A DNA stretch of 33,522 bases from a bacterium. Lineage in GTDB: Bacteria > Planctomycetota > UBA1135 > GCA-002686595. The stretch lies in contig JAUHXY010000014.1 in the NCBI GenBank assembly GCA_030426785.1, positions 1-33,522 of the forward strand, in the 5' to 3' direction. A program made the position numbers and the translations under genes. A model generated the notes under the pieces. That model made no database searches. It had not been told where the DNA came from and saw only the letters and a list, made by a program, of their open reading frames with translations. Of this stretch, positions 9,123 to 19,560 are shown piece by piece (within the stretch, counting starts at the first letter, position 1; every line of letters starts with the position of its first letter).

Positions 9123-10937
9123 ATGGCCCCCGAATCTTCTCGTGCACGTTCGCTAGCACAGCGCGCTTTAGGGTCAGCCCGCTTCGGGCACTTCACCAAG
9201 TGGGTCTTGTTGTCCGCCTTGATCGGGCTGCTGGGAGGCTTGGTGGCCTGGATCTTTCGGGAGATGGTCTACGGCTTTGAGCATTGGCTCTTCAAGCGCC
9301 CGACCGGGATCACGGCGGCCGGACTTGGGGGAGACCAGAACCCGGCCTGGTGGATCGTGCTGATCCCGGCGGCGGGCGGGTTGGCGGTGGGTGCGCTCAT
9401 TCACCTCTACTCCCAAGAGTCGGAGGGTCACGGTACCGACGCCGTCATCCGCACCTTCCATCGCGCAAAAGGCGTCATGCGCGCCCGGGTGATCGCCCTC
9501 AAAGCGGTCACCAGCGCCTTCACGATCGGCACCGGCGGCTCGGCAGGTCAGGAAGGTCCCGTCGCCCAAGTGGGTGCGGGGATCGGCAGTTCGGTAGCAC
9601 AAAGCCTGCGCCTCTCCGATCGTGACCGGCGGTTGTTCGTCCTGGCGGGCGGGTCGGCGGGGGTCGGCGCGATCTTCGGTTCGCCCCTGGGCGGCGCCCT
9701 GTTTTTGCCCGAAGTGCTCTACCGGCGGGCAGAGTTTGAGGGGGAGGCCATCATTCCCTGCATCGTCGCCTCCACCTTCTCCTACGCGACCTTCACGTCC
9801 ATTGCGGGCGTGCACCGGGTCATCAATATCCCTACCGCGACCCTCAACGACCTCGCGTTCCAGCCGGGGCACCTTTGGATCTATGTGCTGTTGGGACTGG
9901 TATGCACCGGTGCGGGTTGGCTTTTTGTGCGCACGTTCTACGGGATCGAGGCGTTGTTCAAGCACATGAAGATCGTGCACCCCATCTTGCGCCCGGCCAT
10001 CGGAGGTCTCCTGGTTGGGCTGCTAGCGCTGGGCATGGCACCCTACTGCGGGGAACACGGGGTGCTCTTCGGCGGCTACGAATTGATGGAAGCTTCGATC
10101 GCCGGCGAATTGGCGCCGAAGCTGATCTTGGTGCTGATCCTGACCAAGATGCTGGCCACCTCCCTTTCGATTTCGTCGGGAGGGTCGGGCGGCGTATTTG
10201 CGCCAGCCTTAGCGATCGGGGCCTTGCTGGGGGCGGGCGTCGGACAGATCGCGCAGGAGTTCGTGCCCGGAGTCACACCAGGCGCGTTCGCGCTGGTTGG
10301 CATGGGGGGCTTCTTTGCGGGCGCCGCGAAGACTCCTATCGCGGCGGTAGTGATGGTTTCGGAGATGACGGGCGGCTACCACTTGCTAGCGCCCCTCATG
10401 TTGGTCGCGGTGGTGCACTTGCTGCTCTCGACCCGCTGGACCATGTACCGCTCCCAGGTCGCCTCCCCCATCAACTCCCCGGCCCACGCCGGTGAGTTCG
10501 TCATCGACGTGTTGCAGTCCCTCAAGGTGCGCGAGGTCTTGGGCGAGATTAGAGCCCCCACCCTGATCCACGAAGACGTGACCCTCCATGGCGCGAAACG
10601 CATCGTAGCGGACTCCCACGAGACCCACTTCCCGGTCATCGACGACGAGGGACTGGTGGGCATCTTTTCGCTGACGGACCTGCGCCGCATCTTCCTGGAG
10701 GAGGTCGTCGAGGATATGGTCATCGTTTCGGACTTCATGTCCGAACACGTCGCGACGGTCAAGCTCGACGATTCCTTGCACGACGCCCAGCGCTTGATGA
10801 CGCGCCGGGGCGTGAGCGCCCTGCCGGTCGTGGACTCCGAGAACCCGCGCAAGGTGCTCGCCCTGCTCGAACGCAACCTGATCGGCAAAGCCTACAACGA
10901 AAAGCTCAGCGAGCTGAAAGGCACGCATTCGCGCTAA
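9123..10937 (+). CDS. ClC family chloride channel/antiporter with CBS domains
   Basis: A 604-residue inner-membrane ClC protein, which moves Cl- or other anions, often in exchange for protons. The membrane domain covers about 25-440. The GKEGP-type motif appears as GQEGP (142-146), with Glu144 as the expected gating residue. The third anion-binding motif is GGSGGVFAP near 353-361. The first motif, usually GSGIP, is here EGHGTDAV near 101-108, as in several divergent bacterial ClC groups. Two CBS domains follow (about 462-520 and 535-595), which in other proteins bind adenine nucleotides. It lies between the AAA ATPase and a proton antiporter gene in the same direction. Transported ion and mode (channel or exchanger) are not decided by the sequence. 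Confidence 0.92.
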   Translation: MAPESSRARSLAQRALGSARFGHFTKWVLLSALIGLLGGLVAWIFREMVYGFEHWLFKRPTGITAAGLGGDQNPAWWIVLIPAAGGLAVGALIHLYSQESEGHGTDAVIRTFHRAKGVMRARVIALKAVTSAFTIGTGGSAGQEGPVAQVGAGIGSSVAQSLRLSDRDRRLFVLAGGSAGVGAIFGSPLGGALFLPEVLYRRAEFEGEAIIPCIVASTFSYATFTSIAGVHRVINIPTATLNDLAFQPGHLWIYVLLGLVCTGAGWLFVRTFYGIEALFKHMKIVHPILRPAIGGLLVGLLALGMAPYCGEHGVLFGGYELMEASIAGELAPKLILVLILTKMLATSLSISSGGSGGVFAPALAIGALLGAGVGQIAQEFVPGVTPGAFALVGMGGFFAGAAKTPIAAVVMVSEMTGGYHLLAPLMLVAVVHLLLSTRWTMYRSQVASPINSPAHAGEFVIDVLQSLKVREVLGEIRAPTLIHEDVTLHGAKRIVADSHETHFPVIDDEGLVGIFSLTDLRRIFLEEVVEDMVIVSDFMSEHVATVKLDDSLHDAQRLMTRRGVSALPVVDSENPRKVLALLERNLIGKAYNEKLSELKGTHSR

Positions 10938-15508: not shown

Positions 15509-15558
15509 AGATACGGTGTCAGGCACGTTTTTCCCAGGCCGCGCCTGACACCGTATCT
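15509..15558. repeat. 16-bp perfect inverted repeat between two minus-strand genes
   Basis: AGATACGGTGTCAGGC (15509-15524) is repeated in inverse at 15543-15558 around an 18-base spacer that contains GTTTTTCCC. The right arm overlaps the stop codon of the ABC ATPase gene by two bases. It can act as a terminator for the importer operon. The GTGTCAGGCAC core resembles short palindromes that I associate with REP elements, so it may be a mobile or dispersed repeat; this needs a genome-wide search. Confidence 0.7.
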
Positions 15559-16303
15559 ACCGCTCGACGCCCAAGATCCCGAAGATCTTGTCTTTGAGGG
15601 CGCGGAAACCCGGATGGTCGGGGTCGCGCGGTCGCGGCAAGTCGTTTTGCAAAACCGAGTGCACGGTCGCCGGACGTTTGGTCATCACGGCGATACGATC
15701 GGCGAGCTCGACGGCTTCTTCCACGTCGTGCGTCACCAAGATGCAGGTCTTTTTGGTTTCTCGCCAGATGCGAATGATCTCGCTGCGCATCCCGAGCCGC
15801 GTGAGGGCGTCCAAAGCTCCAAACGGTTCGTCCAAATAGAGCACATCGGGTTCGACCGCCAGGGCGCGAGCGAATTCGACGCGCTGCTTCATGCCGCCGG
15901 ATAGCTCGCTGGGAAAGGCCTTTTCGAAGCCCTCGAGCCCCACCAAGCGGATGTAACGCATGACGATCTCGTGTTTCTCTTCGAACGGCAGGTTGCCGAG
16001 CCCGAAGCCGATGTTGTCCCACACCGAAAACCACGGGAAGATGCCAGCTTCTTGGAACACGAAGACGCGCTTGCGCGAAGGCTCGCGCACCTCCGCACCA
16101 TCGATGCGGATCGAGCCGGAGGTCACCAGCTCGAACCCCGCCATGCAGTTCAGCAAGGTCGACTTACCGCATCCTGAAGGCCCAACGATGACCAGGAACT
16201 CCCCCTCCATCACGTCCAGGTCGACGCCGTCGAGCACGTCGACGTCTCCCTTCTTGGTGGAGAATACTTTGTGCGCACCGCGCACCGTGATTTTGGTGCT
16301 CAT
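15557..16303 (-). CDS. ABC importer ATPase (SsuB/TauB/NrtD-like)
   Basis: A 248-residue ABC ATPase of the nitrate/sulfonate/taurine importer group. Walker A GPSGCGKST is at 41-49, Q-loop Gln84 in FVFQEAGIFPW, signature LSGGMKQR at 134-141, Walker B LYLDEPFGALD at 155-165 and switch His192 in VTHDVEEA. It powers uptake with the permease encoded five bases upstream and the binding protein before that. An open frame extends far upstream through the permease gene, but homologous sequence begins at the ATG at 16303. The stop lies inside the arm of a long inverted repeat. Confidence 0.93.
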   Translation of the reverse strand: MSTKITVRGAHKVFSTKKGDVDVLDGVDLDVMEGEFLVIVGPSGCGKSTLLNCMAGFELVTSGSIRIDGAEVREPSRKRVFVFQEAGIFPWFSVWDNIGFGLGNLPFEEKHEIVMRYIRLVGLEGFEKAFPSELSGGMKQRVEFARALAVEPDVLYLDEPFGALDALTRLGMRSEIIRIWRETKKTCILVTHDVEEAVELADRIAVMTKRPATVHSVLQNDLPRPRDPDHPGFRALKDKIFGILGVER

Positions 16304-16308
16304 GGGGG

Positions 16309-17076
16309 TTATCTCCGGCTCATCCCTCGGCGGGCCAAGGCCGCGGCTTCGATGCGCGCCATGCCCATGTCCAACAACAATCCGATCAACGCGATGACCA
16401 CCATGGCCGCCGCCACGTAATCCATGCGCAACGCGTTGCGCGAGTCCATGACCTGATACCCCAGCCCGGACTCGACGCCTAACATCTCGGCCGCCACGAC
16501 GACCACCCAAGCGATGCCCAACGCGAGTCGCAACCCGGTCAGGATCTGGGGCAACGTTGCCGGCAACATCACGCGCCGGAAAAAGGCAATGCCCCCCACT
16601 CCAAAGTTGCTCGCCGAGCGGATATAGCGCGGATCGAGCGACGCCGCCGCCGAGGTGGACGCGGTCACGATCGGAAAGAAGGCCGACATGAACAGCAGGA
16701 AAATGGCCGACAGGTCGCTGGACATGGGATAGCCGCCGAACAAAATCACCGCGAACGGCAACCATGCGATCGGGGAAATGGGTCGCAGCGCTTGCACCAG
16801 CGGGTTGAACACGGCGCGCAGGCTCGGATACCAGCCGAGGGCGAGCCCCAGCGGAATGCCGATGCCCGCTGCCAAGCTGAAGCCCCACGCCACGCGGAAC
16901 ACCGAAGCAACGATGTTCTCCCACAGGATGCCCTGCACGGCGATCTCGCCCAAACCGCGCGCGGTCAACCAGGGACCCGGCAAATCGCCAATCGCGTTGC
17001 CGTAGGTCTGCCAGTGCCAAAAGCCCAAGAAGAGCGCAAAGCCAATCGCGCCGAAGAGCAGTGTCCGCAGCTTCAC
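16309..17076 (-). CDS. ABC importer permease (SsuC/TauC/NrtB-like)
   Basis: A 255-residue inner-membrane permease with about six membrane segments. The cytoplasmic EAA-type region that contacts the ATPase is at about 160-200 (ASLDPRYIRSASNFGVGGIAF then RVMLPATLPQILTGLRLAL). IPLGLALGWYPSLRAVFNP and PISPIAWLPFAVILFGG are typical for the SsuC group. Translation starts with GTG at 17076, which overlaps the binding-protein stop (GTGA), and AGGAGG lies about 10 bases upstream. The overlap argues for coupled expression of the three importer genes. Confidence 0.92.
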   Translation of the reverse strand: MKLRTLLFGAIGFALFLGFWHWQTYGNAIGDLPGPWLTARGLGEIAVQGILWENIVASVFRVAWGFSLAAGIGIPLGLALGWYPSLRAVFNPLVQALRPISPIAWLPFAVILFGGYPMSSDLSAIFLLFMSAFFPIVTASTSAAASLDPRYIRSASNFGVGGIAFFRRVMLPATLPQILTGLRLALGIAWVVVVAAEMLGVESGLGYQVMDSRNALRMDYVAAAMVVIALIGLLLDMGMARIEAAALARRGMSRR

Positions 17077-18218
17077 TGCTCCACCTCCTGCAACGGCATG
17101 TCCGGAATGCGGGCGCGCTCAAAGCGCGGGTCGCAGTAGTCTTCGAAGCCGAAAGGATCTTCGGGAGTGACGGGCCGCAAGTCGAAGAAACCCAACTTGT
17201 CCGCCCAGTGTTGGATCTCCGCGAACTCCTCGCGAGCCAAGTCGAGCTCGGTGTACTTGACCCGGTCGACCGGCTTGGTGAGCACGAACTTGAGCAACTC
17301 GGGGTTCTGGTTGTAGTAGCGGCGCTGGGCCGCGATGATCGCAGCCTGCATGCGCGGCGTGCGCCCGAACTCGTTGGGCACCTCCACCAATCCCTGTTCG
17401 CGCGTGGTCTCGCTGGCCGCATCCTGCATGACGAGGCCAGCCAGCAAGCGCTCATCCCCTTCGTCCAGCCACTTGCCCGACGCGGTGATGCCCGTGACCA
17501 ACTCCTGGACCACCTCGGGGTCGTTGTCGATCAAATCTTGCGTCACGATCAACACGCAGGAGATGAAGTTCGGCCAGATGTCTTTGGTCAGGTAGAGCAC
17601 GCGCCCAAAGCCTTCCATTTCCGCTTTGGCCGCGAACGGCTCGCCGACGATGTAAGCATCGAAATTTCCGGCCAGCAGGCCCGCGGGCATTTCCGGCGGT
17701 GGGTAATCGATCAAACGCACGTCGTCATCCTTGAAGCCAAACTCGGCCTTCAGTTTTTCGATCAGGATGCGTTGGTTCGAGTAACGGTGCGGGATGGCGA
17801 TGCGCTTACCGCGCAGATCCGCAAAGGTCTGGTAGGGCGAATCGGTGGGCACGATCATGGCCGTGCCGTCCCGGTGCCCCAAGTGCACGATCTTGACCGG
17901 CGTTTTTCCCTGGCGGGCCATCTGCATGGCGAGCGGCGCCAAAATGAAGGCGGCGTGCAGGTTGCCGGCGTCGATATCCTCGGTCATCGACGGCCAACTG
18001 GTGTAGCGCTTCGAGCGAAACACCGTGCCCGCATCGGAGTTTTCGGTCACCCAACTGGCGACGGGACAGGTGAGGTGTCATGTGACCGGCAAGTGCGCGA
18101 CGGTCAACTGCTTGCGACCATCGCCCCGAAACCAATCGAGGTTCATCCAGCCGTGCAGCAGGGTGACGCTGGACAGAAACGCCAAAAAGGAGAGCAGGAT
18201 ACGAAGCGCTTGACTCAT
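17073..18218 (-). CDS. ABC importer binding protein with in-frame TGA (candidate selenoprotein)
   Basis: Read through one TGA, this gene encodes a 381-residue NrtA/SsuA-like substrate-binding protein. The ATG at 18218 opens a membrane anchor or signal (ALRILLSFLAFLSSVTLL), then KQLTVAHLPVT, TGA at codon 47, and HLTCPVASWVTENSDAGTVF in the same frame. The rest is a typical type 2 binding fold: AAFILAPLAM near 83, HRDGTAMIVP, FADLRGKRIAIPH, AYIVGEPFAAKAE and a C-terminal helical lobe. From memory, relatives have TCHLTCPV here, so the TGA replaces a conserved Cys. Sec insertion would explain this; a Cys-to-stop mutation is the alternative. The piece after the TGA has no signal and no good start of its own. 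GGAGG lies 18 bases before the ATG with a small hairpin between. It is followed by the permease with a four-base overlap. Confidence 0.75.
18047..18073 (-). promoter_or_regulatory. Possible bacterial SECIS-like hairpin
   Basis: Starting five bases after the TGA, UCACCUG can pair with UGGGUGA through a seven-pair stem with G-U pairs, leaving an apical loop of about 13 bases that includes GU at +16/+17. Bacterial SECIS elements lie immediately downstream of the UGA and have a G in the apical loop at about this distance. The stem is short and the match is by eye only. Confidence 0.25.
18078..18080 (-). other. In-frame TGA at a Cys position
   Basis: The codon is TGA in the reading ACA-TGA-CAC-CTC-ACC-TGT, codon 47 of the binding protein gene. 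A single third-base change from TGT or TGC would create it. The next base is C and the next codon CAC, as follows the Sec codon in E. coli fdhF. Sense reading continues in the same frame for 334 codons. Confidence 0.6.
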
Positions 18219-18370: not shown

Positions 18371-19399
18371 TCAGAAAGAAACCTGCACGTCGAGGCGCAC
18401 GCGCAGAGGATCGTCGATCTCATCGTCGCCCTGCAAAGCCCACAGTTTGACGTTGGTGCGCTCGTTCCAGTTGCGTTGGTAGCCAGCGATGAAGCCGGTC
18501 AAGCCCATCGGCCCGGGCGCGATCGGCACGTCGTCTTGACCAAACTCCCACAGATTGGCGTTGGCCTCGAAGTCGAAGTAGTTCAAGAAAACCCCGTCGG
18601 TGTCGTTGATCTTGGCTTGGACCCCCAAAGCCCAGCCCAGGTCCTCGTCCGTGTCGTCGTCAAGGTTCTGGAAAGCTTCGGCGGACGCGGTCCAGGCCCC
18701 CTGGCGACCCGCAAGCATCACGTCCCACACCTGCGCCTCGTTGGGCCCCTCGTTCGAGTAGTTCCACAGGGAGGTGTGGAAGTCCCAATCGATGCCCCGC
18801 CAGGCCTGGGAGGCCAGGAACTGGAGCACCGTGACCGCCGGGTCCGAAGCGTCGCCAGCCGCGTTTTCCTCGTCCAGAATCCAGTAGCCGGCCCGGGCTC
18901 CCAAAGAAGCTCCACCATCCCAGATCGCGGAGAGGCCAGCGGGTTGGATGTCCGCGTCCCACAACCACTCCCCATAAACCGGGTTGACGGCCAAGGGATT
19001 GCCCATCTTGCCCGCCTTCCACGTCAAGCAGCCGTTGTTGGGCGAGTAGGTCAGGTTGATGCGATCCAAGACGATGTCGCTGCCGCTGACCGTGTCGCTG
19101 CCGTTGCTGGCGCCGAAGTCCCAGTGAGGATTGTTGGCGTCGCCCGAGGCGGTGCTGAGGCGCACCTCGGCGCGCAGCTCTTCGGTCACCTGGGCTTGCG
19201 CGCCCAGCCGGAACCGCAGGCGGCCGCGCGTGCGGTCTTCCCCATTGGGTTGATCGAAAGTCGATTCCGCCCGCAAACGCAGGTGCGCGGAAAAGTCGAT
19301 CGACTCCTCCCAAGAGGCCGTCATGGCGGCGAGGTCGGAAGCGGTGGGCGTTTCCTGCGGGCCGAAACAGGCCAAGCCGAGGGAAGCGAGGAGCAGCAT
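18371..19399 (-). CDS. Porin-like outer-membrane beta-barrel protein
   Basis: A 342-residue protein with a short hydrophobic start (MLLLASLGLACFG) and then alternating strands typical of an outer-membrane barrel: HLRLRAESTF, GRLRFRLGAQAQV, LRAEVRLSTAS, DRINLTYSP, FLNYFDFEANA, and a C-terminal strand RVRLDVQVSF ending in Phe. It resembles the putative-porin/alginate-export type of proteins. The start at 19399 gives a signal peptide; the open frame continues upstream to 19471 with unlikely sequence. It lies just upstream of and in line with the ABC importer genes, so it may supply the outer-membrane entry for the same substrate. That link is inference. Confidence 0.8.
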   Translation of the reverse strand: MLLLASLGLACFGPQETPTASDLAAMTASWEESIDFSAHLRLRAESTFDQPNGEDRTRGRLRFRLGAQAQVTEELRAEVRLSTASGDANNPHWDFGASNGSDTVSGSDIVLDRINLTYSPNNGCLTWKAGKMGNPLAVNPVYGEWLWDADIQPAGLSAIWDGGASLGARAGYWILDEENAAGDASDPAVTVLQFLASQAWRGIDWDFHTSLWNYSNEGPNEAQVWDVMLAGRQGAWTASAEAFQNLDDDTDEDLGWALGVQAKINDTDGVFLNYFDFEANANLWEFGQDDVPIAPGPMGLTGFIAGYQRNWNERTNVKLWALQGDDEIDDPLRVRLDVQVSF

Positions 19400-19560
19400 G
19401 GGGGGTGCGTTGGGTTGGTTGGGGGAACGGCAGGACGGGCGCAAGATCTCCCGCGCCATCCATTTGTGCAACCCCCAATCCCCATAGCCTCCCCAAATCC
19501 TGAGACGTTCCGTTCCCGTGAGAGGCCGGGTTGGGTCCCGCTGCGCGTCTCCGCAAGCGA

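Follow-up and report, generated by a model that had tools for sequence, protein, structure and literature searches.

A predicted selenocysteine-containing substrate-binding protein of an ABC importer from a planctomycete genome and its relatives

Introduction

Several binding proteins of ABC transporters are already known as selenoproteins. A 2026 review (PMC13188914) lists 119 families or subfamilies of prokaryotic selenoproteins, including SaoX (NF040735), an NMT1-type substrate-binding protein able to carry selenocysteine (Sec), as well as SaoB and BtuF, with the motifs CUxxT and CxxU, respectively (Table 1 of that review). The protein analyzed in the present study is likewise of the NMT1 type. 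Its closest solved relative is an ABC binding protein of S. aureus (3un6; sequence E value 1e-39), whose structure was solved with zinc. The same fold is found in CmpA/NrtA, SsuA, TauA and PqqT, which are more distant, lack Sec and bind bicarbonate/nitrate, sulfonates, taurine and PQQ, respectively.

Results and Discussion

Binding-protein gene and its surroundings

The analyzed stretch of DNA (the window; 33,522 nucleotides) comes from a fragmented draft genome (4.0 Mb in 366 contigs, 85% complete), whose closest named relatives are Planctomycetota, e.g. Pla86, with a binding protein 79% identical to that of the window. Three intact genes lie on the minus strand in the order binding protein, permease, ATPase. 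The first (positions 17073–18218), when read through, encodes 381 amino acids with an NMT1_2 domain (PF13379; 117.6 bits, above the gathering score; fold type NMT1_2/CmpA-NrtA). Its stop is overlapped by the start of an ABC permease gene (16309–17076; BPD_transp_1, 72.4 bits in Pfam) devoid of in-frame TGA codons, and the translation of the third (15557–16303) is an ABC ATPase (ABC_tran, 113.4 bits). With the permease and ATPase in its operon, the product of the first gene is the substrate-binding protein (SBP), of the NMT1_2 type, of an ABC importer.

Translation of the SBP gene revealed a single internal stop, TGA at codon 47 (18078–18080, minus strand), in the context AHLPVT-TGA-HLTCPVASW, i.e. 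HLPVT-U-HLTCPV if the codon specifies Sec. This bore out the original prediction, made from the DNA alone, of one in-frame TGA within LPVT-TGA-HLTCPV, and placed it on the minus strand. The same prediction held that the frame, the signal anchor, the downstream fold and the operon are otherwise intact, with which the NMT1_2 domain, both partner genes and an N-terminal membrane helix (residues 3–25) agree. The helix was located in a structure model built from 80 sequences (pLDDT 93), which replaced a poor one based on 17 sequences (pLDDT 62).

Directly upstream of the SBP gene, and in the same direction, lies a gene for a Porin_5-type porin (18371–19471, minus strand), which is not conserved beside the SBP genes of relatives. 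Elsewhere, the window encodes a CLC-type chloride channel with CBS domains (9123–10937, plus strand). Clustering and scanning of neighbour genes gave no clue to the substrate: beside the relatives only the ABC trio is conserved, the other genes being unrelated.

Codon 47 in related loci

A protein search covering 60 relatives yielded matches interrupted by a single TGA in over 20 further genomes; on translation, this codon fell in the same motif. We compared 81 loci, i.e. the window and 80 relatives kept from a scan of named genomes of Planctomycetota, Myxococcota, Acidobacteriota, Verrucomicrobiota and other phyla. Codon 47 specified Cys in 28 loci (TGC in 21, TGT in 7) and was TGA in the other 53, these being counts of loci that share kinship and are not independent; no other codon was found at this site among the 81. 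The TGA form also occurs in chromosomes recorded as complete (Pla86, Poly30 and Pla163; loci L048, L056 and L084, respectively). When a protein tree was built with column 47 masked, 11 changes between the Sec and Cys states were needed, at least nine of them on well-supported branches. Such repeated exchange is the pattern expected of selenoproteins.

Relatives with Cys at exactly this position had been anticipated, as had the low likelihood that a chance stop would strike a conserved Cys codon; the former are present in 28 loci, and the recurrence of TGA in dozens of genera rules out chance. In the proposed check, no homologue deviated from Cys or TGA at this position, and TGA was present in many independent genomes.

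Some loci showed further peculiarities. In locus L124, from a metagenome-assembled genome (MAG) of Thermoanaerobaculum sp., the SBP gene is present as two tandem copies (motifs at 10160 and 11409), each of which has TGA as its codon for the Sec position. In L069 (1287–3266) the SBP frame extends into a membrane stretch, giving 660 codons without a further stop, apparently a binding protein-permease fusion. An extra TGA in L137 and a second one in L147 were considered as additional Sec codons and rejected, as they are ordinary stops after the domain.

Selenocysteine machinery

The search for selenocysteine genes that had been suggested as a check gave a full set in the host genome: selA (483 bits), selB (355 bits), selC (75.4 bits; called tRNA-SeC by ARAGORN) and selD (335 bits), with selC, selD and selA on one contig. 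The host selD (L158; G000:C143:14596-15531) has an in-frame TGA of its own (YAACSG-U-AAKLPQGQL), and SelD is therefore predicted to be a selenoprotein as well. Among the genomes tested, selB scored above the cut-off in all 23 that carry the TGA form of the SBP gene vs 12 of 28 with the Cys form (Fisher p 6e-6). In one TGA genome (G206, 84% complete) selB is present, while selA was not among the matches listed in the phylum survey.

Hairpin downstream of the TGA codon

According to the bacterial SECIS model of PMC13188914, the hairpin has a stem of 4–16 bp, a loop of 3–9 nt with G in one of its first two positions, a spacing of 16–37 nt and an energy of at most −7.5 kcal/mol. A hairpin of this type (GTCGCC-AGTTG-GGTGAC; 18046–18062, minus strand) follows the TGA codon of the window. 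Its 6-bp stem includes one G-U pair, its apical loop (AGTTG) lies 21 nt past the TGA and its energy is −10.3 kcal/mol, all within these limits. Judged alone against synonymous recodings, it did not exceed chance (p 0.54 for stem length, 0.76 for energy). The evidence for a SECIS element is thus comparative.

Of the 53 Sec forms, 43 (type I) have an AGTTG loop closed by a stem 21 nt past the TGA, and the hairpin core is kept in all 43. The third bases of the Val53 and Val57 codons swap as pairs in these sequences (C-G in 38, G-C in 5, no mismatches), whereas the Cys forms show many mismatches there. The covariation score of the hairpin was higher than in all 500 shuffles and than in slid controls. 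Moreover, Ser55 is encoded by AGT in 43 of 43 type-I forms, while the Cys forms that keep Ser use AGT and AGC equally (4 each), and the hairpin with its AGTTG loop accompanies Sec in six of six independent Sec/Cys comparisons (p 0.031). Its stability is slightly beyond that expected in type-I forms (mean z −0.94, vs −0.61 in Cys forms). A scan of the hairpin against Rfam at a loose threshold produced only chance matches to miRNAs.

Nine of the remaining ten Sec forms make up a second subfamily (L095, L097, L102, L111, L113, L117, L118, L124 and L125), in most of which the hairpin is longer and of another kind, starting approximately 13 nt past the TGA (mean z of all ten forms, −2.07). This suggests separate origins of the recoding signal.

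Decoding of UGA47

The SBP has the features that would mark one partner of a Cys/Sec pair: UGA opposite Cys, UGA at the same site elsewhere, selA, selB, selC and selD in the genome, and a hairpin within the bacterial SECIS limits. We consider it very likely, close to certain, that it is a selenoprotein in which UGA47 is read as Sec, an interpretation already put forward in the original prediction and supported here by the Sec/Cys site pattern together with the sel genes.

The same prediction had allowed for a TGT/TGC to TGA mutation. A pseudogene confined to one genome, created by such a point mutation or by a sequencing error, would suit a draft as fragmented as this one, and a single base change turns Cys into TGA; nevertheless, the 53 loci with TGA at codon 47 are spread over many genera and several phyla and include complete chromosomes, and this recurrence refutes local mutation or sequencing error. 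Against a pseudogene, too, the sequence 3' of the TGA is conserved up to the C terminus and the operon is intact, and the probability left for this explanation is negligible. It is also highly improbable that the TGA is a real stop followed by a restart at the GTG at 18050, which would yield a shorter functional protein. Although 325 codons are open from that point, the product would lose the membrane helix and the first strand, the Cys forms read straight through, and both Sec and Cys forms show protein-level conservation around the TGA as well as upstream of it. As for UGA encoding a different amino acid in this lineage, or being generally read through, an open frame under another code can always be proposed, but the SBP gene itself ends with TGA as a normal stop, the only alternative residue at codon 47 is Cys, the sel set is complete and, in the genomes tested, TGA forms occur only alongside selB. 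We give this last option next to no credence.

As a selenoprotein, the SBP would be produced by decoding of UGA codon 47 by tRNA-Sec and SelB, aided by the hairpin just 3' of it. Comparative evidence supports the recoding, and from it we infer incorporation of selenium into the SBP.

Protein fold and predicted ligand

Together, the SBP, permease and ATPase would form a three-part ABC importer with a Sec-containing binding protein. The membrane-anchored SBP is expected to hold its ligand in the cleft of the NMT1-type fold, where Sec47, placed in the loop past the first strand, probably touches the ligand along with Cys51, His115 and Cys221. Residues invariant in the 80 SBP sequences include U/C47, H48, C51 (codon 18066–18068, minus strand; the partner of Sec47 in U-x3-C), H115 (LGHRDG; 17874–17876, minus strand), D117 and C221 (FISC; 17556–17558, minus strand). 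Around the TGA, LPVT, H48, C51, P52 and V53 are kept in Sec and Cys forms, and H22 and N26 are nearly invariant.

The top structural match of the SBP model was again 3un6 (TM 0.86 by target). In a sequence-profile alignment, this protein has His at position 47, His at 115 and Cys at 221 and, unlike the SBP of the window, contains neither Cys51 nor Sec. Distant relatives have Asp47 and lack Cys51, but retain His48, His115 and Cys221. Position 47 is therefore occupied by Asp, His, Cys or Sec across the relatives (Asp and His only in distant ones), all of which are common metal ligands, and these shifts suggest a metal-like or thiophilic ligand. The invariant positions 47, 48, 51, 115 and 221, considered together with the zinc-bound neighbour 3un6, likewise suggest a soft metal, a metalloid or another thiophilic compound, which would be the likeliest class of ligand, and for which a selenolate would raise the affinity. 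For a metal or metalloid in particular, our confidence falls somewhat short of even.

The protein could also be a selenoprotein whose Sec47 and Cys51, instead of holding a metal or metalloid, form a redox switch or react covalently with an electrophilic organic substrate. The two residues of U-x3-C seem to have arisen jointly, the relatives with Asp47 also being those without Cys51, and relatives in fold include sulfonate and taurine binders and enzymes such as DszB. What argues for metal or metalloid binding instead is the set of residues found at position 47 and the zinc with which the closest fold, 3un6, was solved. We regard the redox or covalent role as a real but minority possibility. 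Redox and metal/metalloid roles had both been raised in the original prediction, and either is plausible. A broader proposal, i.e. a widespread family of Sec-containing ABC importers, gained or lost repeatedly, with two SECIS hairpins and with Sec as a direct ligand of an imported soft metal, metalloid or organometal, is offered tentatively, as less likely than not.

Significance

These results add a large, apparently unlisted selenoprotein family that current NCBIfam models do not cover, and do so for phyla whose use of selenium has received little study. Genome annotations probably misreport SBP genes with an internal TGA as split or truncated. Sister lineages with naturally occurring Cys or Sec forms offer a ready test of the contribution of selenium to a binding protein, which is a carrier and not an enzyme; a Cys-containing homologue could, in addition, serve to find the cargo.

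Comparison with known selenoprotein transporters

The SaoX model (NF040735) gave 45.4 bits on the SBP, far below its cut-off of 300, and no SaoX members exceeding this cut-off were found in the one other phylum searched. The Sec motif listed for SaoX is UxP, in contrast to U-x3-C (TUHLTCP) in the window, a difference between listed motifs rather than aligned columns. The permease behaved similarly: its best NCBIfam match was SaoP (NF040733), with 138.5 bits vs a cut-off of 295. Pfam and NCBIfam scans of the SBP gave no match to the SaoB or BtuF families. In their main texts, neither deep-Sep nor the 2016 survey mentions a family of this kind.

The original prediction had regarded a binding protein with a U-x3-C pair as new. 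This stands for the family itself, as its motif occurs in none of the 119 families of PMC13188914, but not for Sec in ABC binding proteins as such, since SaoX, SaoB and BtuF are already included there. Compared with the Pfam and NCBIfam models and the literature considered here, the SBP of the window is best called a new family within the selenoprotein ABC binding proteins.
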